Positions 2,191-51,935 of a stretch of 64,000 nt of DNA are shown here, piece after piece (the stretch's first letter is position 1; each line of letters starts with the position of its first letter). Location: assembly GCF_000223215.1 (NCBI RefSeq), contig NC_017243.1:186001-250000 (forward strand), in the 5' to 3' direction. The translations under genes and the position numbers were made by a program. Under the pieces are notes generated by a model. It did no database searches. It was not told the DNA's origin and saw nothing but the letters and a program-made list of their open reading frames with translations. Source of the stretch: Brachyspira intermedia PWS/A (lineage in GTDB: Bacteria > Spirochaetota > Brachyspiria > Brachyspirales > Brachyspiraceae).

Positions 2191-2295
2191 TAAATTAAAA
2201 TATAATAAGATTTTGAATTATAAATAGTATTTGTGTATTTTTAAAAATATTAGATTATTATAACATAATTTTAAAGTGTAGTTTTAATTATAAAA

Positions 2296-2562
2296 TGTGC
2301 TTTTGCAACTTTGACGAAGTCCGGTAAAAGTTGATAAAAAATAACTTTTCAAATTTATTTTAACCCCCACCCTTTAAAGTTTGTTGCTTCATTTTGAATT
2401 TTAATATTGATTATCTTTATAGCTTAATTATAATTTGTTAGCACCCGCCCAAGTTTTATTGAAATTTTTTGCTTTACTCAACGCACGATTAATATTTAAT
2501 TTTTTATTATCAAAATTCGATTATTAATTAATGTATATTTATAATCCTATTCTGCGTGCGTT
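2296..2562. repeat. Composite intergenic repeat, partial copy 3 with CAACTTT hairpin
   Basis: This stretch starts with a short hairpin module: CAACTTT (2306-2312) and AAAGTTG (2327-2333) enclose GACGAAGTCCGG-type loop sequence. The right half of the core follows (CCCCCACCCTTTAAA near 2365, CACCCGCCCAAG near 2442), then CGCACG near 2480 and CTGCGTGCG near 2551. The left half of the core is missing. Together with copy 2 it fills the whole 757-bp gap before the next gene; no coding signal is seen. Confidence 0.75.
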
Positions 2563-4273: not shown

Positions 4274-4905
4274 ACTCTACGCACGGTGAACAAAATTTTT
4301 AATATAATAATATTTTAATTGCAAATAAATCTGTATATATAGCTTTACTCTGCGTGCGGTGAATGCACTATAAATTTAAATACAACTTGGGTGGGTTGTT
4401 AGAAATTCTGTTTATACTTCAAAGAAATAAAAAGTCATAATTGCAAATTAAAGTAATAAGCCTAAAGGGTGGGCAAATGTAATTAAATTTTTAAACTTAA
4501 ATATTAAAATTCACTGCTTCATTTTTAATTTTTATAGATAATTAGAAATTTTAGCACTAGATCAAATATTTATTAAATTTAAGAATGATTTATAAAATTT
4601 TATATTATAAAAAATTAGCACTTTTGCAACTTTGACGAAGTCCGGGAAAAGTTGATAAAAAATAAGTTTTCAAATTTATTTTAAATCCCACCCTTTAAAA
4701 TTCATTGCTTCATTTTTAATTTTGATATTGATTGTCTTTATATCTTAATTAGAATTTGTTAGCACCCGCCCAAGCTTTATTTAAATTTTTTGCTTTACTC
4801 AACGCACGATTAACTAAATTTGTAATATAATAAAATTTGAAATAAAAATAAAACTATATTTATAACTTTGCTCTGTGTGCGTTTAAAAAATAATAAATTT
4901 AATTT
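4274..4905. repeat. Composite intergenic repeat, two partial copies (gap 4211-5050)
   Basis: First partial copy: ACGCACGGTG (4279), CTGCGTGCGG (4350), CTTGGGTGGG (4386), GGGTGGGCAAATG (4468), after which the CCCCGCCC arm is missing. Second partial copy: the CAACTTT...AAAGTTG hairpin (from 4627), CCCACCCTTTAAAA (about 4685), CACCCGCCCAAG (about 4763), CGCACG (about 4803) and a mutated GTGTGCG (about 4873). The arrangement matches copies 1-3 around the TPR gene. The last ~140 bp before the chemoreceptor gene is very AT-rich, without repeat boxes, and should hold its promoter. Confidence 0.75.
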
Positions 4906-12711: not shown

Positions 12712-13288
12712 TAAATCGAGCATCTATCAGCTTTATCTGATAGAGTTTTTAAAGCGATATTTTTTATATATAATAAGAAGTTTATAGCTAGCAATTTTAA
12801 AGCTATAAATAAGCAGCTGATAACTTTAGTTGTCAGTTATTAAAAAATAAAAAATCGAGCGTCTATCAGCTTTATCTGATAGAGTTTTTAAAGCGAGATT
12901 TTTTATATATAATAAGAAGTTTATAGCTAGTAATTTTAAAGCTATAAATAAGCAGCTGATAACTTTAGTTGTCAGTTATTAAAAAATAAAAAATCGAGCG
13001 TCTATCAGCTTTATCTGATAGAGTTTTTAAAGCGAGATTTTTTATATATAAGCAAAAATAAAAAATCGAGCGTCTATCAGCTTTAGCTGATAGAGTTTTT
13101 AAAGCGATATTTTTTATATATAATAAGAAGTTTATAGCTAGCAATTTTAAAGCTATAAATGAGCAGCTGATAACTTTAGTTGTCAGCTATTTTTGAGCTC
13201 ATTTATAGCTAGCAATTTTAAAGCTATAAATGAGCAGCTGATAACTTTAGTTGTCAGCTATTTTTGAGCTCATTTATAGCTAGCAATA
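12712..13288. repeat. Tandem array of 139-bp hairpin-rich units (gap 12614-13357)
   Basis: Near-identical units begin with TCTATCAG at 12723, 12862, 13001 and 13073: two steps of 139 bp, then a shortened 72-bp unit. The end is two copies of a ~72-bp unit containing GAGCTCATTTATAGCTAGC. Each unit holds three perfect or near-perfect hairpins: TCTATCAG/CTGATAGA, TTTATAGCT/AGCTATAAA and AGCTGATAAC/GTTGTCAGCT. No coding frame is present. A single related unit recurs at 19631-19766. The array ends at the terminator of the first protease gene and starts ~100 bp upstream of the flavin reductase start codon. Confidence 0.85.
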
Positions 13289-13296: not shown

Positions 13297-13333
13297 AAAA
13301 TCAGACTGCCATTTATAATAACAATCTGATTTT
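13297..13333 (-). terminator. Terminator of protease gene 1
   Basis: AAAATCAGA (13297-13305) pairs perfectly with TCTGATTTT (13325-13333); read on the minus strand the stem is followed by a run of T. It lies 25 bp past the protease stop codon. Confidence 0.7.
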
Positions 13334-13357
13334 ATTTTTTATTATCTATATATCTTA

Positions 13358-14629
13358 TTAATCAATTACTTTATCTATATAAAATAATTCGTCTGTTAAA
13401 TTAGCTCTTTGATATTTAATTGAAGAGTTCAAGTTATCTGCTTTCTTTATAGTAAGATTTACAACATCTTCTTTGTTAGCAAGTCCTGCTGTTGTATTTA
13501 CAGAATTATTTATCACAACAGAAAGTCCTGTTTGTCCTAATTGTCTTGTTAATAATTTATTACCGCTTATATTATTATTAGCAGTGCTATAAACTACTAA
13601 TGACTTAGGCAATAAAGGTATGCTTCCATTTTGATTAAAGTTTTTATCAGTTGGATCTATAGGAGCTATATTTAGTCCTTGAACTTCATTTTTACTGACT
13701 CCTTCTATCCAATTAAGCAAAACAGTATCCATATCATTTCCAAGACCATATTTTGATGTAATATTTAGAAGCCTTTGTTCACTTGTTAATGAAGGATCAG
13801 AATGTGCTATTTCTTTATAAATATTAAAGTTTCCGCCTGTTCTAGCATCAAGCCATTTCATAAACATTGATGAAGAAGCATAACTAAGTAATACATGACC
13901 AGGAGTAAATACAAAACTCCAATCAGTGTACATAAAATACCAAGAGTAAAAAGAATAATAAGGATTATTTATGAAAAAATTTATTCTCGAATCAGTAAGA
14001 GTTGATGAAAATAGATGAGATGTAGATTCTGAAAGTGATTCATTAAGCCATATATCCATTGCTTTATTTTTGAGCATTGCATTGTTATAATAGTTAATTA
14101 AATGCTGTAATTCATGCATCATAAGTCCTATTGTACTTTCACTGGTAGGAACATTAATATGTAAATATTCTCCAGGTACTCCAGACTTACCGTATATTAA
14201 ATCATTGGCACTAAAATATCCTCCTGTTATTGATGTGGTTATATTTGTATTAAGGTTAGCCATTAAAAATATTACTTTTCCATTTCCGTCAAAATCAGGA
14301 ATTTCTCCATATATTTCTATTTCTTTAGGTATGTAATTTTCAAACTCTCTTAAAAAAGATAATATATCTCCTTTTGTGATGCCTTTATCAATCTGACTTT
14401 CTTCTACATAAATAATTGCATTTGCTGATTCAGCTAGCTTTTTAAATGTCCCTTCAACAGCAATCATAGCATCTGTTTTGCCGTCATTTATTTTATAATA
14501 ATATGTTTTTCTTATGGCGTTATTAGGTTCATAATATGTTATATCACTTACAGAAGGTGCTGTAACTTTATTACCGCATGAAGCAATAAACATAAAGATA
14601 ATGAATAAAAATATGTAACTTTTCTTCAT
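13358..14629 (-). CDS. Lipoprotein zinc metallopeptidase, M30-like (paralogue 1 of 5)
   Basis: A 423-residue predicted lipoprotein protease. The signal peptide ends in lipobox F-I-A-S-C with Cys 18. The zinc site is M-M-H-E-L-Q-H-L-I-N (HELQH at 172-176), followed by W-L-N-E-S-L-S-E (E197/E201), one of which is the likely third ligand; this layout resembles the hyicolysin (M30) group. Other conserved blocks are E-I-E-I-Y-G, D-G-N-G-K-V-I-F-L-M-A and G-E-Y-L-H. The C-terminal ~100 residues are beta-rich. AAGGAATAACTT lies before the ATG. It is divergent from the small lipoprotein at 14815 across a 185-bp region with a palindrome. The substrate is unknown. Confidence 0.8.
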   Translation of the reverse strand: MKKSYIFLFIIFMFIASCGNKVTAPSVSDITYYEPNNAIRKTYYYKINDGKTDAMIAVEGTFKKLAESANAIIYVEESQIDKGITKGDILSFLREFENYIPKEIEIYGEIPDFDGNGKVIFLMANLNTNITTSITGGYFSANDLIYGKSGVPGEYLHINVPTSESTIGLMMHELQHLINYYNNAMLKNKAMDIWLNESLSESTSHLFSSTLTDSRINFFINNPYYSFYSWYFMYTDWSFVFTPGHVLLSYASSSMFMKWLDARTGGNFNIYKEIAHSDPSLTSEQRLLNITSKYGLGNDMDTVLLNWIEGVSKNEVQGLNIAPIDPTDKNFNQNGSIPLLPKSLVVYSTANNNISGNKLLTRQLGQTGLSVVINNSVNTTAGLANKEDVVNLTIKKADNLNSSIKYQRANLTDELFYIDKVID

Positions 14630-14653
14630 AAGTTATTCCTTATAATTTTTGAT

Positions 14654-14682
14654 TTAAGCAAATAATAATATTATTTGCTTAA
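14654..14682. promoter_or_regulatory. 29-bp perfect palindrome in a divergent promoter region, unit 1
   Basis: TTAAGCAAATAAT (14654-14666), a central base pair step and its exact reverse complement up to 14682 lie between the divergent starts at 14629 and 14815. The position, 25 bp from the protease start codon, suits an operator or a leader hairpin. The same sequence with one changed base occurs in unit 2 and a degenerate one in unit 3. Confidence 0.5.
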
Positions 14683-14814
14683 TAGTAAATTTTTTTACTT
14701 ATTATTACAATATGAAATTATCTAATATCTTATAAAATTAATTTTTTATTAATATTGAATAAATTTAGAATAGATGTTATTGTATTTTTTATAATAAAAT
14801 TATTAGAGGTAAAA

Positions 14815-15282
14815 ATGAATAAAAAAGTAAAATATATTATTTTTATTATTTCTGTATTAATTTTTATTTCAGGATGTAAAAACAATGCTACAAATCCCAG
14901 CACTTTTGAAGAAATAGGAAAATATAGAGGAACTTGGGTTGCAGACAAGTGTGAGGCTATTGATTTTAATACTGATAAATGGATTGAGAAAGAATATCCA
15001 ATATCTATTGAAATAAATAATGATACTGATGTATTAATTATGAATGTTCCTGTTGATTCCGTTAAATATTTAAAAGATACTATTGATACTTTTGATTTAT
15101 ATGTTTCAGTCGACAAAGCACCGCTATTACCGCCCCCTGAAATAACTGGTACAGTTTCTGAAGTTTATTATAGAATGGCATTCAATAGTTACAATTCAGC
15201 TACAATGGTTATGATTATAAAAACTACGGATAATATTAATTCTTCCATTTTTAGCTTGATAAGATGTTCATTAAAAAAATAA
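14815..15282 (+). CDS. Small GTW-motif lipoprotein (partner 1)
   Basis: A 155-residue predicted lipoprotein: MNKKVKYIIF start, lipobox I-S-G-C with Cys 21, an Asn/Thr linker and then G-K-Y-R-G-T-W (35-41) opening a beta-rich domain. The start is ATG 14815, which has AGAGG 6 bp upstream; the frame runs 20 codons further upstream but that stretch is the promoter region, conserved in the next unit. G-x-W near the start of a small all-beta domain is reminiscent of lipocalin-type barrels; this is a weak structural analogy only. It is divergent from protease 1 and convergent with protease 2, with its own strong terminator. Confidence 0.75.
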   Translation: MNKKVKYIIFIISVLIFISGCKNNATNPSTFEEIGKYRGTWVADKCEAIDFNTDKWIEKEYPISIEINNDTDVLIMNVPVDSVKYLKDTIDTFDLYVSVDKAPLLPPPEITGTVSEVYYRMAFNSYNSATMVMIIKTTDNINSSIFSLIRCSLKK

Positions 15283-15307
15283 GTTAATATTTTATTATAT
15301 GTAAAAA

Positions 15308-15336
15308 AACCTGCTCTATATATGAGCAGGTTTTTT
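15308..15336 (+). terminator. Terminator of small lipoprotein 1
   Basis: AACCTGCTC (15308-15316), loop TATATAT, GAGCAGGTT (15324-15332) then T run: a perfect 9-bp stem, with an A run on the left that makes it usable in both directions. Confidence 0.85.
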
Positions 15337-15382
15337 ATTATTATAAAAATTGTAAAATCAGTCTGACAATTACAATCTTATT

Positions 15383-16717
15383 TTATTGTTTTTTGATATT
15401 TTTTTCATCTTCCTCAGTAATTACTTTATCTATGAAATATTCTCTATCTTGTAAATTGAATCTTTGATATTTAATTGAAGAGTTCAAATTAGCTGCTTTC
15501 TTTATAGTAAGCTCTTCAACATTTGCTTTATCAGCAATTACTGCTGCTGCCAAATTTTGTCCTTGATTTTCAGAATTATTTATTACAACAGAAAGTCCAG
15601 TTTTTCCTAATGGTCTTGTTTCTAATCTACCGCTGGTTGTTATTTGAGGATTATCAGCAGTACTATAAACTACTAATGACTTAGGCAATAATGGTATTTT
15701 TCCATTTATATTAAATTTTGGATCAGTTGGATCTATAGCAGATAGCTTTAGTCCTGGAACAACTCCATTGTTTATATCTGCTATCCAATCAAGCAATACA
15801 GTATCCATATCATTTGCAAAACCATGTTTTGATAAAACATTCATAAGTCTTTGTTCGCTTGTTGGTGCAGAAGGAGAATGTGCTATTTCTTTATAAATTT
15901 CCTGCTTTCCGCCTGTTTTACTATCAAGCCATTTCATAAATATTGATGAAGAACCGTAACTCATCAATATATTTCCATATCCTCCAACTGGGACTGTTCC
16001 TTGAGGAGTACCGTCAGTATATACTAAATTCCAAGTGTAAAAAGAATAATAAGTAGATGTGTTAAAAATATATTCTCTTTCTTTAGCAATAGGTTCTGAA
16101 AATATAAGAGAAGTAGATTCTGAAAGTGCTTCATTAAGCCATATATCCATTGATTTGCCTTGCATTAGATTGTTATAAGCGTTAATTAAATGCTGTAATT
16201 CATGCATCATAATACCCAATGTTATATCAGAAACAGGAAGATTAACATGTAAATATTCTCCAGGTTCTCCGTTCTTACCATTAATTAAATCAGATGGCTG
16301 AAAATATCCTCCCAGTCCTGTTGTAGTTACATTTGTATTAATATCAGCCATTAAAAATATTACTTTTCCATTTCCGTCAATATCAGGAATTTCTCCATAT
16401 ATTTCTATTTCTCTAGGCAGGTAATTTTCAAATTTTCTTAAAAAAGATATTACACCAGCTTTTGTGATGCCTTTATCAATCTGACTTTCTTCTACATAGA
16501 TAATTGCATTTGCTGATTCAGCTATCTTTTTAAATGCTCCTTCTTTAGCTATCATACTTTGATCTTTGTTATCCTTTATACTATAAGTATATGTTTTTAT
16601 TATCGTATTATTAGGATCATAATATGTTATATCACTTACAGAAGGTGCTGTAACTTTATTACCGCATGAAATAATAAACATAAAAATAATGAATAAAAAT
16701 ATATGACTTTTCTTCAT
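15383..16717 (-). CDS. Lipoprotein zinc metallopeptidase, M30-like (paralogue 2 of 5)
   Basis: A 444-residue paralogue of the previous protease, nearly identical over its first ~35 residues (lipobox F-I-I-S-C, Cys 18). The zinc motif HELQH is at 172-176, followed by W-L-N-E-A-L-S-E. Compared with paralogue 1 it has an insertion around residues 235-245 (T-P-Q-G-T-V-P-V-G-G) and a longer C-terminal tail ending D-E-K-N-I-K-K-Q. AAGGAATAACTT precedes the ATG. It is divergent from the small lipoprotein at 16903 and convergent with the one at 14815. All catalytic residues are intact, so it is probably functional. The substrate is unknown. Confidence 0.8.
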   Translation of the reverse strand: MKKSHIFLFIIFMFIISCGNKVTAPSVSDITYYDPNNTIIKTYTYSIKDNKDQSMIAKEGAFKKIAESANAIIYVEESQIDKGITKAGVISFLRKFENYLPREIEIYGEIPDIDGNGKVIFLMADINTNVTTTGLGGYFQPSDLINGKNGEPGEYLHVNLPVSDITLGIMMHELQHLINAYNNLMQGKSMDIWLNEALSESTSLIFSEPIAKEREYIFNTSTYYSFYTWNLVYTDGTPQGTVPVGGYGNILMSYGSSSIFMKWLDSKTGGKQEIYKEIAHSPSAPTSEQRLMNVLSKHGFANDMDTVLLDWIADINNGVVPGLKLSAIDPTDPKFNINGKIPLLPKSLVVYSTADNPQITTSGRLETRPLGKTGLSVVINNSENQGQNLAAAVIADKANVEELTIKKAANLNSSIKYQRFNLQDREYFIDKVITEEDEKNIKKQ

Positions 16718-16741
16718 AAGTTATTCCTTATAATTTTTGAT

Positions 16742-16770
16742 TTAAGTAAATAATAATATTATTTGCTTAA
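16742..16770. promoter_or_regulatory. Palindrome in the divergent promoter region, unit 2
   Basis: The same 29-bp palindrome as at 14654-14682, with one arm carrying GTAAAT instead of GCAAAT (a G-T pair if transcribed). The whole 185-bp spacer is almost identical to that of unit 1, showing recent duplication or conversion of the regulatory region. Confidence 0.5.
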
Positions 16771-16902
16771 TAGTAATTTTTTTTACATATTATTACAATA
16801 TGAAATTATCTAATATCTTATAAAATTAATTTTTTATTAATATTGAATAAATTTAGAATAGATGTTATTGTATTTTTTATAATAAAATTATTAGAGGTAA
16901 AA

Positions 16903-17382
16903 ATGAATAAAAAAGTAAAATATATTATTTTTATTATTTCTGTATTAATTTTTATTTTAGGATGTAAAAACAATGCTACAAATCCCAGCACTTTTGAAGA
17001 ATTAGGAAAATATAGAGGAACTTGGGTTGCCGATAATGTTTATATGCTGGATCTTTCGAATGATCAATTTTTACAGTCAGGAAATGGAATGACTATTAAA
17101 ATAAATAGCGATACGGATACAGTAATTGATAATATTGTTCCTATTTCAATTAGGCATTTACCTGATACAGTTGATAGTTATTATTTATATATTTCGACTG
17201 ATGATGTTCCTCCTCAGTATTTATCAAAGATTACTGCGGAAGGTGGACAAGTTAATGGAGCTTATTATAAACTGGAATTTACTAGTCATAATTCACTCAA
17301 AATATATATGATTCTTCAATGTAGAGCAGGATTAAACCCTTTTAATTTAGTAATACAAAAAGCTGACTTAAGAAGTAATTAA
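16903..17382 (+). CDS. Small GTW-motif lipoprotein (partner 2)
   Basis: A 159-residue predicted lipoprotein. The first ~45 residues, including lipobox L-G-C (Cys 21) and G-K-Y-R-G-T-W-V-A-D, match partner 1 almost exactly; beyond that the two diverge sharply. This one instead matches partner 3 (T-I-K-I-N-S-D-T-D, H-L-P-D-T-V-D, A-Y-Y-K-L-E-F-T-S). The start with AGAGG upstream is ATG 16903. The mosaic suggests gene conversion of the 5' part between neighbours. It is divergent from protease 2 and ends in its own terminator. The function is unknown; I infer a partner role from the repeated pairing. Confidence 0.75.
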   Translation: MNKKVKYIIFIISVLIFILGCKNNATNPSTFEELGKYRGTWVADNVYMLDLSNDQFLQSGNGMTIKINSDTDTVIDNIVPISIRHLPDTVDSYYLYISTDDVPPQYLSKITAEGGQVNGAYYKLEFTSHNSLKIYMILQCRAGLNPFNLVIQKADLRSN

Positions 17383-17402
17383 TAATTTTGATGTATATAC
17401 AA

Positions 17403-17437
17403 AATAACCTGCCCTATATATGAGCAGGTTATTTTGT
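17403..17437 (+). terminator. Terminator of small lipoprotein 2
   Basis: AATAACCTGC (17403-17412) pairs with GCAGGTTATT (17424-17433), a variant of the terminators after partners 1 and 5. Confidence 0.75.
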
Positions 17438-17460
17438 TTATAAACCATTACAATCTTATT

Positions 17461-18801
17461 TTATTGTTTTTTGATATTTTTTTCATCTTCTTCAGTAATT
17501 ACTTTATCTATGAAATATCCTCTGTTTTGTAAATTGAATCTTTGATATTTAATTGAAGAGTTCAAGTTAGCTGCTTTCTTTATAGTAAGATTTTCAACAT
17601 CTGCTGTCTCAGCAATTCCTTCATATGATTCTTGATTTACAGAAGTATTTATTACTGCAGAAAGTCCTGTTTGTCCTAATGGTCTTGTTAATAATTTACC
17701 GCCGCTTGTTATTTGAGGATTATCAGCAGTGCTATAAAGTACTATTGACCTAGGCAATAAAGGTATGCTTCCATTTATATTAAATTTTTGATCATCTGGA
17801 TCTATAGCGGATAGCTTTATGCCTGGAATATCTCCATTGTTTATACCTTCTATCCAATTAAGCAAAACATCATTCATATCATTTCCAAGATTATATTTTG
17901 ATAAAACACTCATAAGTCTTTCTTCGTCTGTTAATGAAGGATCAGAATGTGCTATTTCTTTATAAATTTCCTGCTTTCCGCCTGTTTTTAAATCAATCCA
18001 TTTCATAAACATTAATGAAGAAGCGTAACTAATAAATATATTATCGTCTCCTCCAACTGAGACTGTTCCTTCAGGAGTGTTGTCAGTATATAATAACTTC
18101 CAAGTGTAAAAAGAATAATAAGTAGATGTGTTAAAAATATCCTCTCTTTCTCCAATTAGAGGTTCTGAAAATATAAGAGAAGTAGATTCTGAAAGTGCTT
18201 CATTAAGCCATATATCCATTGCTTTGCCTTGCATTAGATTGTTATAAGCGTTAATTAAATGCTGTAATTCATGCATCATAGTACCTACTGTGTCATTATT
18301 AGTAGGAACATTAACATGTAAATATTCTCCGCGTACTCCTTCCTTACCGAAGATTAAATCAGACTGATAAAAATATCCTGCCATTGCTGTTGTAGCTTCA
18401 TTTGTATTAATGTTAGCCATTAAAAATATTACTTTTCCATTTCCGTCAAAATCAGGAATTTCTCCATATATTTCTATTTCTCTAGGCAGGTATTTTTCAA
18501 ATTCTCTTAAAAAAGATATTACACCCTCTTTTGTGATGCCTTTATCAACATAACTTTCTTCTACATAAATAATCGCATTTGCTGATTCAGCTATCTTTTT
18601 AAATGCTCCTTCAGCACCTACAAAAGTACCAGTTATGCCATCATAAAGATTATAAGGATATGTTTTTATTATCGTGTTATTAGGGTCATAATATGTTATA
18701 TCACCTATGACTTCTCCTGAATTTGAAGGCTGTGTAATTGTATTGCCACATGAAATAATAAACATAAAATTAATGAATAGAAATATATAACTTTTCTTCA
18801 T
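17461..18801 (-). CDS. Lipoprotein zinc metallopeptidase, M30-like (paralogue 3 of 5)
   Basis: A 446-residue paralogue: lipobox F-I-I-S-C (Cys 18), a slightly longer linker, HELQH at 177-181, W-L-N-E-A-L-S-E downstream. It is closest to paralogue 2, sharing its C-terminal end D-E-K-N-I-K-K-Q and the T-P-E-G-T-V-S-V-G-G insertion. A good ribosome-binding site (AAGGAATAACTT) precedes the ATG. It is divergent from small lipoprotein 3. The palindrome in its upstream region (about 18827-18855) is degenerate compared with units 1 and 2. Active-site residues are intact. Confidence 0.8.
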   Translation of the reverse strand: MKKSYIFLFINFMFIISCGNTITQPSNSGEVIGDITYYDPNNTIIKTYPYNLYDGITGTFVGAEGAFKKIAESANAIIYVEESYVDKGITKEGVISFLREFEKYLPREIEIYGEIPDFDGNGKVIFLMANINTNEATTAMAGYFYQSDLIFGKEGVRGEYLHVNVPTNNDTVGTMMHELQHLINAYNNLMQGKAMDIWLNEALSESTSLIFSEPLIGEREDIFNTSTYYSFYTWKLLYTDNTPEGTVSVGGDDNIFISYASSLMFMKWIDLKTGGKQEIYKEIAHSDPSLTDEERLMSVLSKYNLGNDMNDVLLNWIEGINNGDIPGIKLSAIDPDDQKFNINGSIPLLPRSIVLYSTADNPQITSGGKLLTRPLGQTGLSAVINTSVNQESYEGIAETADVENLTIKKAANLNSSIKYQRFNLQNRGYFIDKVITEEDEKNIKKQ

Positions 18802-18989
18802 AAGTTATTCCTTGTAATTTTTAATTTAAGTAAAAAATAATATTATTTATTTAATAGTAATTTTTTTTACTTATTATTACAATATGAAATTATCTAATAT
18901 ATTATAAAATAAAATTAATTTTTTATTAATATTGAATAAATTTATAATAGATGTTATTGTATCTTTAATACTAAAATTAGAGGAAAAAA

Positions 18990-19448
18990 ATGAATAAAAA
19001 ATTGAAATATATTATTTTTATTATTTCTTTATTAATTTTTATTTCAGGCTGTAAAAATAATGCTACAAGTCCTAGTACTATTTATGGTATAGGAAAATAT
19101 AGAGGAACTTGGTTTGCAGATAATTTTGATATGCTGGATCTTTTTAGGAATCAATGGGTACAGTCAGAAACTGGAATGACTATTAAAATAAATAGCGATA
19201 CTGATATGGTAATCAATAATATTGTGCCTACTTCAATTAAGCATTTACCTGATACAGTTGATACTTACCATCTATATATTTCGACTGCTGATGTTCCTCC
19301 TGAGTATCCATCAAGCCAAATTGTTAAAGCTTATTATAAACTGGAATTTACTAGTTATAATTCAGTCAAAGTAACTATGGTTATTCAATTTATAATGGAT
19401 GGAAACTCTATTAATATGGCAATACAAAAAGCTGAATTAAAAAAGTAA
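18990..19448 (+). CDS. Small GTW-motif lipoprotein (partner 3)
   Basis: A 152-residue predicted lipoprotein with Cys 21 in I-S-G-C and G-K-Y-R-G-T-W-F-A-D at 35-44. The body is close to partner 2 (M-L-D-L, M-T-I-K-I-N-S-D-T-D, N-N-I-V-P). AGAGGAAAAAA precedes the ATG. It is divergent from protease 3 over 188 bp. The following hairpin (19477-19512) is a mutated form of the terminators after the other partners. Confidence 0.75.
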   Translation: MNKKLKYIIFIISLLIFISGCKNNATSPSTIYGIGKYRGTWFADNFDMLDLFRNQWVQSETGMTIKINSDTDMVINNIVPTSIKHLPDTVDTYHLYISTADVPPEYPSSQIVKAYYKLEFTSYNSVKVTMVIQFIMDGNSINMAIQKAELKK

Positions 19449-19476
19449 CTAATAATTTTGATGTATATATAAAAAA

Positions 19477-19512
19477 AACTACTCTTAATATATGAGCAGG
19501 TTTTTTATTTGT
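19477..19512 (+). terminator. Degenerate terminator of small lipoprotein 3
   Basis: AAACTACTC and GAGCAGGTTT flank an AT loop and a T run follows; two stem positions no longer pair compared with the copy at 15308. Confidence 0.45.
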
Positions 19513-19630
19513 AATAAAAATTGTAGATTACCAAATTTTTATAATAGCTTTATATTGTTTGATAAAATAAGTTTAATTAATTTATGTAGTTATGCAGTTT
19601 GATATATAAAAAATTGATAATATTTAAAGT

Positions 19631-19766
19631 GATAAACGAGCAGCGTATAACTTTAGTTGTCAGCTATTAAAAAATAAAAAATCTAGCGTCTATCAGCTTT
19701 AGCTGATAGAGGTTTTAAAGCGAGATTTTTTATATATAATAAGAAGTTTATAGCTAGCAATAATAA
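19631..19766. repeat. Single hairpin-rich unit related to the 139-bp array (gap 19449-19836)
   Basis: One unit of the array at 12712-13288, with the same hairpins (TATCAG...CTGATA, AACTTTAGTTGTCAGCT, TTTATAGCTAGC), lies between partner 3 and the end of protease 4. As at the first locus, it directly abuts a protease terminator (AATCAG 19770-19775 with CTGATT 19800-19805). Before it come a degenerate terminator and ~110 bp of plain AT-rich sequence. No gene is seen in the gap. Confidence 0.75.
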
Positions 19767-19836
19767 AAAAATCAGACTATTATAATTACTTATAACAGCC
19801 TGATTATTTTATGTTTTTAATTAATTATTATTTATT

Positions 19837-21147
19837 TTATTCTGTAATTACTATGTCAGTAAAATAATCCTTTTTGAACATAGTTAATTCACTTACATTA
19901 TTATTTCTAACAGCTGTTCTAGTAAGTGAAATAGGTACTATATCGCTTGCAGAAGTAAATCCTGCAGATGCATTTTTTCTAGTATTTAATACAATATAAT
20001 TACCATTTCCCAAATCTTCTTTTCTAATGTTAGAATCAGTTATCTTATCACTATCTTGCTTACTGCATACTATTAATGCTTTAGGGAGCAGCTGAGTTTG
20101 TCCGTTTATTAAGAATTCTTCATAAGATTTACTTGATGCTAAATCTGATATATTAGGAGCATTGGAAATATCTTTAATATCGCCGTTATTTATACCTTTT
20201 ATCCAATTAATAAGCAAAGTATCCATATCATTGCCTAAACTAGGAGCTAATGTTTTTACAGAATCTAGAAGTATTTGTTCACTGTCAGTTAGGCTAGAAG
20301 ATGCTATTTTTTTGTATATTTCCTGATTATTTCCTGTTTTAGCATCAACCCATTTCATAAACATTGATACAGGGGCATAACTTGCTGCATACATAGGCTT
20401 TGTAAATATATCATTATTTTTAGAATATTGAAAGTACCAAGAGTAGAAAGAATAATAAGGAGTGTCATTAAATGCTTTAGCTCTCATATTAACCATTTCC
20501 TTATCAAACATATGAGATGTAGATTCTGAAAGTGCTTCATCAAGCCAAATATCCATTGCTTTATTTTTTTTAATACCATTTACATATTTGTTAATTAAAT
20601 GCTGTAATTCATGCATCATAATGCCAATTCCATAATCTATATTATTACCGACATCTATATGTAGATATTCTCCAGCTATACCGCCTTTTCCTATAGATAA
20701 GTCCAACGGATTAAAATATCCTCCTGTACTAAAGCTTCCTCCTGCTGTATTAGTATTAAGATTAGCCATTAAAAATATTATTTTACCATTTCCATCAAAA
20801 TCTGAAGGCTGTCCGTATATTTCAACTTCTCTAGGATAATATTCTTCAAATTTTGTTATAAATGATAAAATCTTATCTTTTGTTATAGTATTAATTCCTT
20901 GCTCCAAATAAATAATTGCATTTTTAGATACAGCTAGTTTTTTAAATGTATTTTTCACAAATATATTTTGACCTGTTACATTATCTATTCTAAAGAAAGG
21001 GTATTCTTTAGTTTCTGCAGTAGCAGGGTCATAATAAGTTATACCATTAATTATTTCTGATATTGGTTCTGAAGGAGATGTAGTAGGTTTATTACAAGAA
21101 ATAATAAACATAAGAATAGCGAATAAAAATATATAAATATTCTTCAT
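19837..21147 (-). CDS. Lipoprotein zinc metallopeptidase, M30-like (paralogue 4 of 5)
   Basis: A 436-residue paralogue forming a second subclass with paralogue 5. Lipobox F-I-I-S-C (Cys 18); HELQH at 179-183; W-L-D-E-A-L-S-E downstream (Asp for Asn next to the probable ligand Glu). Shared subclass features are T-K-E-Y-P-F, K-I-I-F-L-M and a C-terminus ending D-Y-F-T-D-I-V-I-T-E. It is divergent from small lipoprotein 4 across 173 bp, in which the 29-bp palindrome is absent but a CAATATGAA element is kept. It is probably functional. Confidence 0.8.
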   Translation of the reverse strand: MKNIYIFLFAILMFIISCNKPTTSPSEPISEIINGITYYDPATAETKEYPFFRIDNVTGQNIFVKNTFKKLAVSKNAIIYLEQGINTITKDKILSFITKFEEYYPREVEIYGQPSDFDGNGKIIFLMANLNTNTAGGSFSTGGYFNPLDLSIGKGGIAGEYLHIDVGNNIDYGIGIMMHELQHLINKYVNGIKKNKAMDIWLDEALSESTSHMFDKEMVNMRAKAFNDTPYYSFYSWYFQYSKNNDIFTKPMYAASYAPVSMFMKWVDAKTGNNQEIYKKIASSSLTDSEQILLDSVKTLAPSLGNDMDTLLINWIKGINNGDIKDISNAPNISDLASSKSYEEFLINGQTQLLPKALIVCSKQDSDKITDSNIRKEDLGNGNYIVLNTRKNASAGFTSASDIVPISLTRTAVRNNNVSELTMFKKDYFTDIVITE

Positions 21148-21320
21148 ATTTATTCCTTTAATTTTTTTATTAATTTTTATAAAATAATGATAAAATATCT
21201 GATGTTAATATACAATATGAAGTTTTCAGATTTATTATAAAAATAAAATTTAATTGATTTTATTTATTAATAAAGTTATAATTAACTAGTTATGATTCAG
21301 TAAAAAATTGGAGTTATAAA

Positions 21321-21782
21321 ATGAATAAGAAATTGCTGTCAATAATTATGGTTATTTCATCATTATTTTTTATTTTAAGCTGTAAAAATAATGTTAATAA
21401 TCCTAATGTATATTTTCAGGATCAGCCTATAACAAGTTATTCTGGAACATGGAAAGGGGATATTTATGATACATTATATAATGAACAGCCTCTTTTTTTA
21501 GCAACAATTATTATAAATGATGACGGTTCAATTAATTATGATGGAGATATTGTAGCAAAAGAAGATATAATCTCTAAAGGCAATAATACTTTTGAATTTA
21601 TTTTATATGATAATTTAACCTTAGGTAATCAAATTGTTGCTTTAAGGTATGTAAATACATTAAAAATTACTGATAATTACACTATGAATTGCTTTGGAAC
21701 AATTGATATGAAATCAGGAGTCAGTGAAGAAGTTTGGGATACTTTTATGAATACATCAGGAACTTTACAAAAACAGCAATAA
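21321..21782 (+). CDS. Small GTW-motif lipoprotein (partner 4)
   Basis: A 153-residue predicted lipoprotein: MNKKLLSIIM, lipobox I-L-S-C (Cys 21), then Y-S-G-T-W-K-G at about 40-46. The segment I-I-I-N-D-D-G-S-I followed by D-G-D-I-V-A-K-E-D-I matches partner 5, not partners 1-3, so the small lipoproteins fall into the same two subclasses as the proteases. GGAG lies before the ATG. It is divergent from protease 4 and followed by a remnant of another family member. The function is unknown. Confidence 0.75.
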   Translation: MNKKLLSIIMVISSLFFILSCKNNVNNPNVYFQDQPITSYSGTWKGDIYDTLYNEQPLFLATIIINDDGSINYDGDIVAKEDIISKGNNTFEFILYDNLTLGNQIVALRYVNTLKITDNYTMNCFGTIDMKSGVSEEVWDTFMNTSGTLQKQQ

Positions 21783-21838
21783 ATATTAATTGATTTTACA
21801 GGTATTTATACAGTATGTTTATATTTAAAAATATAAAA

Positions 21839-21964
21839 ATTAATAAAAACTTCTTTTTATTATTGTTATTTTAGCATTTTCTGATATAGCAAGATATAGG
21901 CGGAAAATATGTATGAAATTGGACGTTTAATCTGATCTCTATATAAATTAGAGAGGTTTTTTAT
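21839..21964 (+). pseudogene. Remnant of a sixth small GTW-type lipoprotein gene
   Basis: The 379-bp gap 21783-22161 contains a decayed copy of the partner-5 gene. ATTAATAAAAAC (from 21839) matches its ATGAATAAAAAA start, TTATTATTGTTATTTTAGCA (from about 21858) is identical to its signal-peptide region, and GATATAGGCGGAAAATATG (about 21893-21911) matches its GATATAGGAGAAAAGTATG segment after an internal deletion. A hairpin (CTCTA 21937, TAGAG 21949) plus T run follows directly, like the terminators of the intact copies. The frame is destroyed and the start codon lost. The rest of the gap is plain AT-rich sequence that should contain the partner-5 promoter. Confidence 0.65.
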
Positions 21965-22161
21965 AATATAAAGTTTGTAATTATTAAAAAATTTTAATAA
22001 AATAAAATTTTTTTTTATTGATAAAAATATAATTAATGTTAATCTTATTATAAAAAATTGTAATTTAATTAATAAGATTCTAGAGATAAATACTTATAGA
22101 TTAATGATAATAGCAATAAATTTATTTTACAATATTTTTTATATTAATACAGGAGAAAAAA

Positions 22162-22686
22162 ATGAATAAAAAACTATTTTCAACACTTTTTATTATTGTT
22201 ATTTTAGCATCTTTTTCTGCTATAGGATGTAAAAATCCAAATACAGACCCAACTCCTACAGGTACAGATATAGGAGAAAAGTATGCCGGCACTTGGTATC
22301 TTAATGCTACAATGAAAGTGGAGTTTGGCAATCCGGCACCTCAAAATGCTGATCAGATTATTGCAGAATTTGCCCCACAACTTGATGGTACAGCAGTTAA
22401 AAATGATCAAATTATTATAAATGACGATGGAAGCATTAAGGATAGTGCAGGGGATATCATACAAAAAACAGATATAGTAAAAGAAGGTGATAAATATATT
22501 GTAAAATTAAAAAATGATTACCCTAATTTGCCACAAGATATTTTTCCTGAAGCAGGTATGGAAATTACTTTTAATGCAGACGGAGCAGGTACTGTGGCAA
22601 CATACCTTGTAATGAACCTCAATAATAATTATTATAATTTTTATTTATTTAAGGATGGAAAATTAACTAAAAATCCTGTTCAGTAA
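22162..22686 (+). CDS. Small GTW-motif lipoprotein (partner 5)
   Basis: A 174-residue predicted lipoprotein: MNKKLFSTLF, lipobox A-I-G-C (Cys 23), a Thr/Pro linker, then E-K-Y-A-G-T-W-Y-L (39-47) and a beta-rich domain with I-I-I-N-D-D-G-S-I. Unlike partners 1-4 it is not divergent from a protease; it is convergent with protease 5, with a perfect terminator between them. GGAG precedes the ATG. This is the longest member, with an extra segment of about 20 residues (N-P-A-P-Q-N-A-D-Q). It is likely exported and membrane-anchored. The function is unknown. Confidence 0.75.
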   Translation: MNKKLFSTLFIIVILASFSAIGCKNPNTDPTPTGTDIGEKYAGTWYLNATMKVEFGNPAPQNADQIIAEFAPQLDGTAVKNDQIIINDDGSIKDSAGDIIQKTDIVKEGDKYIVKLKNDYPNLPQDIFPEAGMEITFNADGAGTVATYLVMNLNNNYYNFYLFKDGKLTKNPVQ

Positions 22687-22718
22687 TTAGTTAAAATTAA
22701 TTTAATTACTATAAAATA

Positions 22719-22754
22719 TAACCTGCTTTATAAATATATAAAGCAGGTTTTTTA
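22719..22754 (+). terminator. Terminator between small lipoprotein 5 and protease 5
   Basis: AACCTGCTTTAT (22719-22730) pairs perfectly with ATAAAGCAGGTT (22737-22748) around a 6-base loop, then a T run. Confidence 0.85.
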
Positions 22755-22778
22755 TTTATAATAAATTATTATGTTCAA

Positions 22779-24113
22779 TTACTTTTTTATAATATCTTTT
22801 TCTGTAATTACTCTGTCAATAAAATAATTATCTTTGAATATAGTTGATTCAGTTATATTATTGTATCTTGAATTTGGAACTGCTGCTTTAGTAAGTGAAA
22901 TAGATACTATATCACTTTCAGCAGAATATCCAGCATATTGATTTTGGCTGGTATTTAATACTATATAATTACCGTTTTTTAAATCTTCTTTTATAATTTT
23001 AGTATCATTTATTTTATTAGCATCTTCAGCTGTACATATTATTAATGCTTTAGGAAGCAGAAGAGTTTTTCCATTTTTTAAAAATAGATTATAATAATTG
23101 TCTGATGTAGATGCAAAATTCTTAATACTAAGTCCAGGAACTTCACCATTATTTATACCTTTTATCCAATCAATAAGCAAAGTATTCATATCAGTGCCTA
23201 AACTAGGATTTAATTCTTGTGCACATTGTATAACTCTTTGTTCTCCGTCTTTTATATGAGAAGAATGTGCTATTTTTTTGTATATTTCCTGATTTCCGCC
23301 TGTTTTAATATCAAGCCATTTCATAAACATTGATGCAGGGCCATAACTTGCAAAATCCATAGGTGTTCCAAATATATTAGCATCACTGCCATCTATTGGA
23401 TATTTAAAGTACCAAGAGTAGAAAGAATAATATGGAACTTTATCAAGTGATTTAAGTCTTGAATCACTAATCTCTTTAGAAAATATATGAGATGTAGATT
23501 CTGCAAGACCTTCATCAAGCCAAACATCCATTTCTTTTCCAGTATTAAAATAATTTACATTGAAATTAATTAAATGCTGTAATTCATGCATCATAACTCC
23601 AAGTATGTAATCTTCATTAGCCACACTAGGATCTACATGCAAATATTCTCCTTTTACACCGCCTTTCCCACGTGTCAAATCAGAACCATAAAAATATCCT
23701 CCAATACCAGGTTTTTCTTTTGTTTGGTTAGTATTAAGATTACCCATTAAAAATATTATTTTGCCGTTTAGATCAAGATCTGAAGGATTTCCATATATTT
23801 CAACTTCTTTACTATAATATTCTTCAAATTGCTTGACAAAAGACATTATAGTATCTCTTGTCATTTTATTATAGCCTTTTTCTAAATAAATAATTGCATT
23901 TTGTGATTCAGCTACTTTATTGAAAGTACTTTTTGCATCTATCCAAGCACCTGTAATGACATCAGATTTTAAAAACGGGTATTCTTTAGTTTCTGCATGA
24001 GAAAGGTCATAATATGTTATACCATCTATATTTTCTGAAGGCCCTGTAATTTTATTACCGCATGAAATAATGAACATGAAGATAATGAATAAAAATATAT
24101 AAGTTTTTTTCAT
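22779..24113 (-). CDS. Lipoprotein zinc metallopeptidase, M30-like (paralogue 5 of 5)
   Basis: A 444-residue paralogue, subclass shared with paralogue 4. Lipobox F-I-I-S-C (Cys 18), HELQH at 176-180, W-L-D-E-G-L-A-E downstream, the closest of the five to the classical W-L-x-E-G-x-A-E of M30-like enzymes. AAGGAATATCT precedes the ATG. Its upstream neighbour is mnmG on the same strand, only 98 bp away, so it has no divergent small lipoprotein; the convergent partner 5 is the nearest. The upstream spacer keeps the CAATATGAA element seen at the divergent promoters, suggesting its own promoter. Confidence 0.8.
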   Translation of the reverse strand: MKKTYIFLFIIFMFIISCGNKITGPSENIDGITYYDLSHAETKEYPFLKSDVITGAWIDAKSTFNKVAESQNAIIYLEKGYNKMTRDTIMSFVKQFEEYYSKEVEIYGNPSDLDLNGKIIFLMGNLNTNQTKEKPGIGGYFYGSDLTRGKGGVKGEYLHVDPSVANEDYILGVMMHELQHLINFNVNYFNTGKEMDVWLDEGLAESTSHIFSKEISDSRLKSLDKVPYYSFYSWYFKYPIDGSDANIFGTPMDFASYGPASMFMKWLDIKTGGNQEIYKKIAHSSHIKDGEQRVIQCAQELNPSLGTDMNTLLIDWIKGINNGEVPGLSIKNFASTSDNYYNLFLKNGKTLLLPKALIICTAEDANKINDTKIIKEDLKNGNYIVLNTSQNQYAGYSAESDIVSISLTKAAVPNSRYNNITESTIFKDNYFIDRVITEKDIIKK

Positions 24114-24211
24114 AGATATTCCTTAATAATTTTATTTTAATAAATGATAAATTATAAAGACTGCAATAACAATATGAATTTTTCAAAAAAGAATCATAAC
24201 AATATAATAAA

Positions 24212-26065: not shown

Positions 26066-26190
26066 ATATAATATTCTCATTTAAAAATTAAATTTTTATT
26101 AAAAAGATAATATATTAAAAACTTTTTATTGTCAAAGGAATATTTTTAAATACTAGTTTAAAAATTTTATTTAATATTGAAATTATATAA

Positions 26191-26619
26191 CCGCACGTAG
26201 AGTAAAGTTTTAAATATGAATAATATTTAAATTACAATTATAATAATAAATAAAAAACAGTTAACCGTGCGTTGAGTAGATTTAAAATCTAATAAAATCT
26301 AGGGTGGGTTCTAATAAATTCTAATTTAGCAATAAATATAATTAATATTAAAATTCAAAATATAGCTTTAAAACATAAAGGGCGGGGTATGTAATTAAAA
26401 TTTAGAAAATTAATTACATTTGCCCACCCTTTAGGTTAATAACTTTTATCTGTAATTATAGTTTTATATTTTCTTTTTGCTTATTTAGAATTTATAGCTG
26501 CCCATCCAAGTTTTTTTAAATTTATAGTGTTCTCACCGCACGCAAAATAATATTTTAAATATAAGATACTTTTGAATTATAATGTTAATAATAAATTAAA
26601 ATCAGCTCACCGTGCGTTG
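26191..26619. repeat. Composite intergenic repeat, complete copy (gap 26066-26717)
   Basis: The most complete copy, in the opposite orientation to copies 1-4. Left flank: CCGCACG (26191) to CCGTGCG (26265-26271), 81 bp. Core: GGGTGGGTT (about 26302), GGGCGGGGTATGTAATT (about 26379), TTACATTTGCCCACCC (about 26415), GCCCATCCAAG (26500). Right flank: CCGCACGC (26536) to CCGTGCG (about 26610-26616), again about 81 bp. Two similar flanks thus bracket a nested-palindrome core. No open frame is present; the rest of the gap is AT-rich. Confidence 0.85.
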
Positions 26620-30547: not shown

Positions 30548-32854
30548 TCAATTATCTAATTTGCAAAGTTTAATACTTTCATCATTAATTATTCTTCTTA
30601 TAATTTCTATATTAGAATCATCAAAGTTTTTAGGGAAGTATATGCTTTTTATTTTTATATTATTGTTATTTAAAATTGCTCTGTAAGCATAATCTTCTGA
30701 ATTATAGCTGAATATAGAAAGTAAAGTGTCATAATGAATATTATCTTCTTTAGTGATAAACTTAGCAGTTCTTCCGTAAACATTTTCTTCTTTATTATAA
30801 TTTTTTGTTTTAATTATAATTGAATCTGAAGCTTCATACTCTATACATATGCTATTATCATATAAATTATTAATAGATGAATTAAATGAAGCAAAATAAA
30901 TATTCATTTTATTATTAAAATGTTCTATAACAGGTTTTATTGCTGTTAATTTTCCTGCTTCCATAGAGTTTTCTAAAATATTGAATATATTTTCAGTTTC
31001 TGTTTTTTTATCTAATAATAATTTAAGAGTGTCTGTATTATAGTTAATATTTTTGTATAGAGTGCAAGAAGAATTATTTTTATGTATATTATGGAACTCT
31101 ATAGTTTTATTTAAAGATTTTTCAAATAAGTCTAAAAAGTCATTATATTTTATTATATTTCCTTTCAATAAAGTATATGATAATAAAAATATATTGTAGC
31201 TTGCAAAATTATCTTCTCTTAAATCAAAATTATCTATATATCTATTGTAAGTATCAAGAAGTGAATCATAATCTTTTTTCAAATAATATATAACAGCCAA
31301 ATTATTATAAAGCTCGAAAGATGATTTTTTACTTTCTATTAATTTATTATAACATATAGAGGCATTATCATAATCTTTTATTCTATAGTATGATTGAGCC
31401 AGCATATTATAAATGTCATCATCTCTTCTATCAATTCTTGATGCATATTCTATAACTTTATTATAATCTTTATTATCAAAACATATTGAAAGTAATTTAT
31501 CATAATGTTTAAATGAATTAGGATTTACTTCTATAATTTTATCTGCAATACTCAAAGCATTATCATATTCTTCTAAATCAAAGTATAGATTAAATAATAT
31601 TTCATAAGAATTGCTGTATGAAGGATTAAGCTCTAATGCTCTATTTAAATAAATTAATGATTTTTCTTTTTCGCCTAAATAATAGTAGGATAAACCTATA
31701 CCGTTATATGAATCAGCATTATTATTATTTATATCTATTGCTTTATTGAAATTCTCTATCGCATTATTATAATCTTCTAAATTATAATAAGCTAGTGCCA
31801 AATTATTATAAGCCTTATAATATCTGTCATTAATTTCTATAGATTTATTGAAATAGTTTATAGCTTTGTCATATTCTTCATTAGATGAGTAGCATATACC
31901 TATAAAGTTATAAGCCTTATAAGCATTTGGATTTTTTTCTATCACTCTTTCAAAACATTCTATAGCTTCATAATAATATTTTTTAGAATAATAGCTTATT
32001 CCTAATTTATTATAATCGGTAAAAGTATTAATATCTAATTTTTTAGCCTTATCAAAATAAAGTGCCGCTTTATCGAACATCTTTCTATTGAAATAAACTA
32101 AAGCTAAATTATTATAGGCATTGGCATATTTAGGATTAATATCTATAGCTATATTGAAATATTTTATAGCATTATCATAATCTTTTAGGAATGAATATAC
32201 TGCTCCCAAAGTATTAGCTATTTTGCATGACTTACCATTATACTGAAGGAATTTAGTAAAGCATTCTATTGCCTTTTCATAATTATTAATATTATAATAG
32301 CTCATTCCAAGCATATCATAAGCTTTAAAAACTCTTTCATCTAAAGATTTTGAATGTTCAAAAAATTCTATTGCTTCATTATATTTTTTATTTTTATAAT
32401 AGAATAAAGCTAAATTATTAAAAGCCTTATCATATTTAGGATTAATTTCTATAGCTTTATTAAAATTTTCTATAGCATTAGTATAATCTTTTTTTTCAAA
32501 ATAACTTATTCCAAGCAGATTATATGCTTTAAAAGAATTAGGGGTGATTTTTAAAGTTTCATTGAAACATTCTATAGCTTTGTCATACTGTTTTATAGCA
32601 TGATAACTTATACCAAGAAGATTATAAGATTTAAAAGTTTTTATATCTACTTTTTTAGCTTCTTCAAAATATCTTACAGCATCTTCATACTCTTTAAGCT
32701 CAACGCATACCTGTCCTTTATATAGATTTGCTCTATAATTTTTAGGAACTTTTTTTAATATAACATCTAATATTTCAAGAGTCTGATGATAATCTTCATT
32801 ATTAAGTCTGTATGAAACTTCATTTAAAAGATTTTCCATCTTTGTATTGTACAT
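30548..32854 (-). CDS. Large TPR-repeat protein
   Basis: A 768-residue protein with about fifteen tetratricopeptide repeats from residue ~10 to ~560 (recurrent A-Y-N-N/L-L-G-I-S-Y-x-x-x-K/N-x-Y-D-x-A-I-E-x-F), then ~200 residues without repeats that are beta/alpha mixed (Y-N-K-E-E-N-V-Y-G-R-T-A-K-F, I-I-R-R-I-I-N-D-E). No signal peptide is seen. TPR solenoids mediate protein interactions. The C-terminal domain is not one I recognise. The start has GGGG 7 bp upstream; an internal ATG 5 codons later is possible. It lies on the same strand as the uptake operon but is separated from it by the structured leader. Confidence 0.88.
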   Translation of the reverse strand: MYNTKMENLLNEVSYRLNNEDYHQTLEILDVILKKVPKNYRANLYKGQVCVELKEYEDAVRYFEEAKKVDIKTFKSYNLLGISYHAIKQYDKAIECFNETLKITPNSFKAYNLLGISYFEKKDYTNAIENFNKAIEINPKYDKAFNNLALFYYKNKKYNEAIEFFEHSKSLDERVFKAYDMLGMSYYNINNYEKAIECFTKFLQYNGKSCKIANTLGAVYSFLKDYDNAIKYFNIAIDINPKYANAYNNLALVYFNRKMFDKAALYFDKAKKLDINTFTDYNKLGISYYSKKYYYEAIECFERVIEKNPNAYKAYNFIGICYSSNEEYDKAINYFNKSIEINDRYYKAYNNLALAYYNLEDYNNAIENFNKAIDINNNNADSYNGIGLSYYYLGEKEKSLIYLNRALELNPSYSNSYEILFNLYFDLEEYDNALSIADKIIEVNPNSFKHYDKLLSICFDNKDYNKVIEYASRIDRRDDDIYNMLAQSYYRIKDYDNASICYNKLIESKKSSFELYNNLAVIYYLKKDYDSLLDTYNRYIDNFDLREDNFASYNIFLLSYTLLKGNIIKYNDFLDLFEKSLNKTIEFHNIHKNNSSCTLYKNINYNTDTLKLLLDKKTETENIFNILENSMEAGKLTAIKPVIEHFNNKMNIYFASFNSSINNLYDNSICIEYEASDSIIIKTKNYNKEENVYGRTAKFITKEDNIHYDTLLSIFSYNSEDYAYRAILNNNNIKIKSIYFPKNFDDSNIEIIRRIINDESIKLCKLDN

Positions 32855-44221: not shown

Positions 44222-44998
44222 ATGAAAACAAATAAGTTGAAAATAACTTTATACTTCATTACTATATCAATGTTTTTATTCTCATGTTTGAAAAATAAAG
44301 AAGAAAAAGATGATATCATAATATTCGCTTCTGCTAGTTTAATGAGTCCGTTAAGTGAAATATGCACTAATTATGAAAAGGAAACAGGTAAGAAAATAGG
44401 CTGTACATTTGATTCATCTGGAAGGCTGAGAAAACAGATACAATCCGGAGCTTATTCTGATTTATATTTTTCGGCTTCTACTAGGGAAATGAACGCATTA
44501 AAAAGTATAGATTTATTGCACAATGATAGTATAACAAATGTACTTAAAAATGATATAGTATTAGTAGTGCCAAAAAATTCAGATATATATCTTGACTCTT
44601 TTTGGGATTTAACTAATGATTATGTAACGAAAATAGCTGTTGGAGAATCAATGACTTCTTCTATAGGACAATATACAGAGGAAATATTAAAAAAATTTGA
44701 TATATATGATATTATTTCAGATAAAATTATATATGGTAAAGACACAAAAGAAGTAATTGATTTGGTAAAAAATGATAAAATAGACTGCGGAATAGTTTAT
44801 ATAACAGAAGCCATACTCAATAATAATAATGATTTACAAATAGCTGCTGAACCTAAAACTCATACGGATATAGTTTATAGTATTGCTGTACTCAAAAAAT
44901 CTTTAAAAGAAAAAGAGGCAAGAGATTTTATTAATTATTTATTTTCAGATAAAAGCATTAATATATTAAAAGGTTATGGATTTGGAATTGTTATATAA
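44222..44998 (+). CDS. modA: Molybdate-binding lipoprotein ModA (orphan)
   Basis: A 258-residue binding protein of the ModA type with lipobox F-L-F-S-C. Signatures include I-I-F-A-S-A-S-L-M-S-P-L, T-F-D-S-S-G-R-L-R-K-Q-I and Y-S-D-L-Y-F-S-A-S, which in the family contact the molybdate or tungstate oxyanion. The start ATG 44222 follows GGA; the frame extends 4 codons to a TTG overlapping that site. Normally modA is followed by modB and modC; here the composite repeat starts ~10 bp after the stop and no modBC is in the window. A 3' fragment of a related gene lies at 51944-52020. Confidence 0.85.
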   Translation: MKTNKLKITLYFITISMFLFSCLKNKEEKDDIIIFASASLMSPLSEICTNYEKETGKKIGCTFDSSGRLRKQIQSGAYSDLYFSASTREMNALKSIDLLHNDSITNVLKNDIVLVVPKNSDIYLDSFWDLTNDYVTKIAVGESMTSSIGQYTEEILKKFDIYDIISDKIIYGKDTKEVIDLVKNDKIDCGIVYITEAILNNNNDLQIAAEPKTHTDIVYSIAVLKKSLKEKEARDFINYLFSDKSINILKGYGFGIVI

Positions 44999-45007
44999 AA
45001 ACTTTAT

Positions 45008-45110
45008 TTACATACCCCGCCCTTTAAAATTTACAACTTTATTTTAAAGTTTAGTGTTATTTATATTTAAAGCCAAATTAGAATTTATTAGCACCCGCCC
45101 AAGCTTTATT
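45008..45110. repeat. Composite intergenic repeat, partial copy 6
   Basis: The right half of the core only: ACATACCCCGCCC (about 45010) and CACCCGCCCAAG (45092-45103), right after modA and before the convergent MATE gene. No CGCACG flanks are seen. Confidence 0.7.
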
Positions 45111-45135
45111 TAAATTTAGAATTTATTTTAATACT

Positions 45136-51640: not shown

Positions 51641-51730
51641 AAATAACTCCTTTTTATAAATATGGCATTATTATAACATTGAAGTGTACTCCAATGTCAA
51701 TAGGCAATATACATATTTTTGGAATTTTAT

Positions 51731-51935
51731 TACAAATCCCGCCCTTTAGTTTTGTTAACTTTATTTACAATTAATAGCTTTATTCACATTTAAAGCCAAT
51801 TCAGAAAAAGCATGCCCGCCCAAGTGTTTATTAGATTTAAAGTCTATTAGCCGCACGGTGAATGAATTTTTATATATAATTTAATTTCTATCAATAATTT
51901 AATTTATATTCATAGTTTTACTCTGCGTGCGTATG
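51731..51935. repeat. Composite intergenic repeat, partial copy 7 (gap 51641-52046)
   Basis: Half of the core followed by one full flank: CCCGCCC (51738), ATGCCCGCCCAAG (about 51812), CCGCACGGTG (51851) to CTGCGTGCG (about 51922), about 80 bp. It is followed without break by the modA-like remnant. The first ~90 bp of the gap before it hold the dehydrogenase promoter. Confidence 0.75.

Follow-up and report, generated by a model that had tools for sequence, protein, structure and literature searches.

The genome of the gut spirochaete Brachyspira intermedia PWS/A has 3,308,048 bp in two contigs, and its chromosome has 3,304,788 bp; passages of the genome paper give the plasmid as 3,260 bp (PMC3163572). 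The window, by which we mean the whole 64,000-nucleotide stretch of DNA analysed here, covers positions 186001-250000 of this chromosome. It hosts a complete copy of a composite repeat (Table 1). The flank-core-flank layout of the original prediction is present as described, including its two 81-bp flanks at 26191-26271 and 26536-26616, but the symmetry of these flanks is of another kind: they are direct repeats of one near-palindromic module, which we call A. As a whole, the element is built of two ~215-bp half units, which form an imperfect inverted dimer.

Table 1. Modules and boxes of the complete element, and further copies and fragments of its family in the window
Feature	Position	Strand	Model positions	Remarks
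Complete element	26190-26619	-	2-431 of 432	A1-B1-dyad-B2-A2 on the minus strand; profile match, score 338
A1 module	26536-26619	-		plus-strand boxes CGTGCG 26611-26616 and CGCACG 26537-26542
B1 outer GC box	26501-26507	-		GGATGGG on the minus strand; family consensus GGGTGGG
B1 inner GC box	26423-26429	-		GGGTGGG
Inner hairpin with AT dyad between the inner GC boxes	26380-26429	-		region modelled as R1
B2 inner GC box	26380-26386	-		CCCGCCC; GGGCGGG on the plus strand
B2 outer GC box	26302-26308	-		CCCACCC; GGGTGGG on the plus strand
A2 module	26191-26271	-		plus-strand boxes CGCACG 26192-26197 and CGTGCG 26266-26271
B2 outer fragment	548-609	+	295-356	adjoins the A module of the copy at 600-999
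Near-complete copy	600-999	+	2-403	right A degraded
Near-complete copy	1834-2241	+	2-408	
Half copy B2-A	2339-2560	+	207-429	
Partial copy A-B1	4277-4584	+	2-340	with decayed B2
Half copy B2-A	4660-4882	+	207-430	
Partial copy	44998-45127	+	218-346	B2 only
Half copy B2-A	51717-51931	+	214-429	
Probable lone degraded A module, at most	54155-54230	-		ACCGTGCGTTTA with one mismatch
Half copy A-B1	57929-58124	-	2-199	

The G/C-rich boxes stand out in the window as had been noted, with motif counts far above those expected from dinucleotide shuffles (CCGTGCG 8 observed and 0.07 expected, GGGCGGG 13 and 0.13, GGGTGGG 10 and 0.29). Copies in the window were located with a profile built from 12 copies. 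This search found ten copies or fragments, on both strands as predicted, and matched most of the ten positions that had been listed; the exceptions, 54155 and 56270, are not proper copies. At the latter position most of the sequence belongs to a different repeat, and only a degraded A-like box, near 56480, recalls the family; the GC-rich palindrome GGGGGCTCGGGGGCTAGTCCCCGA at 56300-56335, which had been named as a copy, lies outside the family. The claim of an intergenic location holds genome-wide, where a predicted ORF is overlapped by just one of 71 mapped copies. Several other repeats share the window. Tandem paralogous ORFs of ~420-445 aa lie at 13311-24133 with a period of ~2-3 kb and stretches that are 60-100% identical, 102-bp coding repeats lie at 1005-1814 (a TPR protein) and 31646-32798, and 139-bp direct repeats lie at 12713-13272 in two copies with 98% identity, to which a diverged one at 19679 can be added.

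The anatomy of the family is best seen in 30 aligned full copies from this genome and related species, from which we derived the consensus CGCACG-73-CGTGCG-36-GGGTGGG-78-GGGTGGG-43-CCCGCCC-78-CCCRCCC-37-CGCACG-73-CGTGCG. Eight GC boxes are thus held at a symmetric and near-invariant spacing of 73/36/78/43/78/37/73 bp, and the AT-rich linkers between them vary freely. The standard deviation of the spacing is 0.6-1.0 bp, except for the interval between the left and right boxes of A1 (A1L-A1R; 3.9, with two outliers) and the inner interval (1.5), and 27 of 31 full copies are 425-433 bp long. This regularity is found in copies with a mean pairwise identity of just 69%; two copies differ on average by ~131 substitutions and 8.5 gap events. 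A third family of repeats consists of CCGCACG-32-CGTGCGG plus outer arms; it resembles the ends of the A boxes in a more compact form and occurs genome-wide, for example at L063:11055, L066:710, L067:17391, L078:17829 and L080:6867.

Partial copies had been said to break at module borders, and conserved boundaries had been expected of a genuine family; both are borne out. The ends of partial copies are enriched in the dyad window (24, where 7.5 are expected) and at the B/A spacer (18, where 6.7 are expected). Because the ends pile up at these two places, we take the unit to be the ~215-bp half element with four GC boxes, and its usual form to be the head-to-head inverted dimer, which carries eight.

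The boxes are also conserved between species. In 12 ortholog pairs box columns differ at 6.9% and linker columns at 15.0% (Fisher p 3e-8), and among G/C columns alone the figures are 7.6% (38/503) for boxes and 48.9% (438/896) for linkers, with some bias remaining in this comparison since the boxes define detection, so that the box-weighted search models may have inflated box conservation.

The family extends well beyond the window, contrary to the outcome that would have spoken against the original prediction. Using a covariance model of the inner hairpin to score 150 candidates, we found at least 63 separate cores in the genome, and the family is found in 25 of 26 Brachyspira genomes. The one genome of the genus lacking the element (G019, 2.0 Mb) is also the most divergent in ScpB (75%). 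Any function is therefore not essential across all Brachyspira, and this genome offers a natural comparison for finding a putative binding protein.

Our main finding, which could not be seen from the window alone, is the position of the copies: their distribution is centred on the replication origin. According to passages of the genome paper, the published chromosome has been rotated so that its first position is the GC-skew origin, unlinked to dnaA (PMC3163572); dnaA lies at 1.33 Mb in this genome. Within 360 kb of position 0 there are 46 of the 63 cores, compared with 13.7 expected, and none of the 63 falls between 1.49 and 1.98 Mb. An independent marker of the origin is provided by parS-like sites at 14.7, 15.3 and 16.0 kb, in a genome with one ParB gene. 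This cluster of TGTTTCAYRTGAAACA (G000:C2:14726-16033, locus L062) lies outside the window, and was present in every genome tested (also G001, G004, G006, G007, G009, G010 and G015).

The same pattern is seen in four other species for which a near-complete chromosome contig exists. The centroid of the elements lies 58 kb from parS in this genome and 24, 2, 70 and 3 kb from it in the others. In the same order of species, the median distance between element and parS is 225, 235, 183, 188 and 205 kb, versus 826, 797, 760, 810 and 639 kb expected (simulated p 5e-5, 5e-5, 5e-5, 1.5e-4 and 0.014), the weakest signal coming from a species with six copies. The terminus region has few or no copies in any of the five, and sampled GC-skew minima are in rough agreement in three of the four other species.

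Is this merely where intergenic DNA is found? A control intergenic repeat, TTTGACGAAGTCC, matches at 42 places in this genome and is evenly spread with no origin bias (p 0.27). Within the window this control repeat lies at 2310, 4631, 54307 and 62938, and often adjoins AAAAGTTGATAAAA. An explanation by gene density also fails. The non-coding fraction is ~0.12 elsewhere in this genome and 0.18-0.25 near the origin, a rise of less than about twofold that leaves the roughly 12-fold element density there unexplained.

The copies are mostly inherited vertically at orthologous sites. At ~15 of ~36 sites in one relative (G007) the element still sits between flanks that are both kept, with an identity of roughly 82-95%. 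Within this genome, copies are about equally distant from each other, a star-like divergence that is old; the exceptions are pairs less than 5 kb apart, beyond which similarity among the copies of this genome shows no relation to distance of the kind that local hopping would leave. No clean empty site was found at the scpB-mnmG and L015 loci across up to 27 places or at the ~36 sites in the one relative; what was met instead were orthologous, half, decayed or rearranged copies.

We propose, with a probability of roughly 45%, that the boxes are DNA sites for a putative protein acting on the origin region. The copies would be an old family of non-coding DNA, now largely immobile, whose boxes would be bound by a sequence-specific DNA-binding protein, with AT filler DNA holding them at a set helical spacing. 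By being bound, the elements would mark the part of the chromosome near the origin or fold it, and their role may lie in origin-domain organisation, segregation or division control, as for SlmA, Noc and MaoP sites elsewhere. Half copies and inversions would be a side effect of ectopic recombination between copies. We prefer this reading because it accounts for conserved boxes, fixed spacing, vertical inheritance and origin-centred placement in combination. That copies crowd around the origin in every species mapped suggests, short of proof, that they help to organise that region. Elements between tandem genes show no preferred orientation (14 same, 8 opposite), and convergent gaps are in excess, with 27 of 65 element sites compared with 14 of 99 in the background; this is as expected for DNA-level sites kept off promoters. 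More tentatively, and as a possibility rather than an expectation, this may be an undescribed origin-domain system, in which dozens of large inverted-dimer elements, each an eight-box platform for the putative protein, would delimit and organise the ~20% of the chromosome that surrounds parS and play at the origin the part that matS plays at Ter.

There are objections to protein sites. The species are not independent and orthologous copies go back to common ancestors, which means that the pattern may have been inherited without being maintained; inversions symmetric about the origin preserve origin distance without selection; and half, decayed and origin-distant copies are tolerated. The main rival is a relic interspersed mosaic repeat (BIME/BOX-like) without host function, which we consider a serious contender, if itself rather doubtful. 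In this scenario the family spread near the origin long ago, symmetric inversions kept its distance, and recombination and decay gave rise to halves and chains. It is favoured by the modular breakage, by local duplicates in the window that are up to 87% identical, and by the fact that copies lost in relatives are decayed remnants or halves. Passages of the genome paper also report X-shaped alignments about the skew origin (PMC3163572). Against it, orthologs have kept both the boxes and their spacing, proximity on the chromosome does not make copies more alike (pairs within 5 kb aside), and the TTTGACGAAGTCC repeat is evenly spread in the same genome.

Recombination at the elements was part of the original prediction, and is supported both by the module-border breaks and by flanks that switch between elements in a relative. 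In G007 the flanks of one element map to two different elements of the PWS/A genome (3085272 and 3071860), the PWS/A stretch between elements 3214482 and 3217580 is joined at a single element, and there is a local inversion involving the PWS/A elements 187834, 190277 and 190660. The site 3' of scpB tells a similar story. A full element is followed by mnmG in three genomes and a half element by mnmG in one, whereas in five more the element adjoins other genes and the switch falls within it; in another genome (G017) there is no recognisable element, and unrelated sequence in place of a clean junction. One may ask whether the elements exist, or are kept, for promoting origin-flanking inversions, through homologous recombination or an unseen recombinase near the dyad, where the ends of partial copies cluster. 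We think this unlikely, as any dispersed repeat is able to recombine, the sites with both flanks kept are plainly orthologous, and neither a recombinase nor a fixed crossover base was identified, the halves fading across ~15-25 nt past the inner box.

A structured or cis-regulatory RNA, transcribed from the GGGUGGG/CCCGCCC strand, is very unlikely, even though the folds of single copies are much more stable than those of shuffled sequences (z -6.0 and -6.9 for the two strands). Neither strand folds better than the other, and the element is an imperfect palindrome that also folds as DNA (z -4.9). The sole hint of RNA is an excess of G-U over A-C on one strand (71 versus 18 cells, 33 versus 12 without box centres), in a direction set by just 8 columns versus 6, which leaves this reading a small chance. 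In the inner hairpin and the B core covariation equals that of shuffles on every measure, RNAalifold pairs little outside the GC boxes and finds no compensatory changes in the inner hairpin, a cmscan of the window gave no Rfam match, and the indifference to gene orientation and the excess of convergent gaps also count against a transcript.

A MITE that is or was recently active, with an unseen transposase driving it, is scarcely credible. In its favour are the many intergenic copies in both orientations and short inverted CGCACG/CGTGCG ends of 6 bp, boxes of the same sequence also recurring internally. It is opposed by the absence of target-site duplications (flank repeats of 3.74 nt in 23 full copies versus 3.82 nt on shuffled pairing), the old star-like divergence, the orthologous sites retained with conserved flanks in the relative and the lack of a clean empty site at the loci compared. 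With no target-site duplications, covariation, Rfam match or gene-orientation preference, the active-MITE and structured-RNA readings are unsupported. The modularity and recombination of the original prediction have thus stood; its MITE-like mobility and structured RNA have not.

Intergenic repeats are usually taken as scattered genomic debris. Here a repeat family with conserved boxes tracks the origin across species of a genus in which oriC is unlinked to dnaA and the origin neighbourhood has been reported as variable. If the proposed protein binding is true, spirochaetes would have an origin-domain system that can be put to the test, and its protein could be traced. Should the family be a relic, it would still supply many substrates for recombination around the origin and help in practice to locate the origin in Brachyspira assemblies. 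The element is not described in the passages available from four open Brachyspira genome papers (PMC3163572, PMC2897892, PMC2650404 and PMC3532143); what is new here is the origin-centred position.

Several known systems bear comparison. The BIME/REP (REPIN) elements of enterobacteria and pseudomonads are likewise intergenic, palindromic, many-copy mosaics with modules in alternating orientation, and passages on them describe binding of host proteins (PMC2817692). However, REP palindromes are given as 20-40 bp with GTAG or CGTC tags (PMC3733652), whereas the consensus of our 30 copies has boxes of 6-7 bp that lie 73-78 bp apart in ~80-bp two-box modules, within a 430-bp dimer with an origin-centred spread; we therefore do not place it with REP. 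The BOX elements of Streptococcus pneumoniae are also modular (boxA-boxB-boxC), intergenic and variable in module composition (PMC3049150). They are judged parasitic, with a variable number of boxB and predicted RNA structures; the Brachyspira element is a fixed eight-box dimer of constant length clustered at the origin, and so does not belong to BOX.

Like parS, the element is palindromic DNA near the origin, but the TGTTTCAYRTGAAACA sites are separate and the elements lack that motif. In the window the TGTTTCACGTGAAACA-type parS 16-mer does not occur beyond chance, with one match at 3 mismatches that lies outside the element. The bias towards one chromosomal domain seen in five species is that of SlmA, Noc and MaoP-type sites, and we claim a likeness to these in domain bias rather than membership. 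SlmA sites in E. coli and Noc sites in B. subtilis are single short operators of a known protein with no large composite, and known SlmA, Noc and matS sites fall far short of the ~430 bp of the multi-box element. MaoP/maoS and MatP/matS are systems in which a chromosomal domain, Ori or Ter, is defined by its sites (PMC5023128, PMC5441646). There, maoS is a single site and matS is specific to Ter; the Brachyspira element is present in more than 60 copies around the origin.
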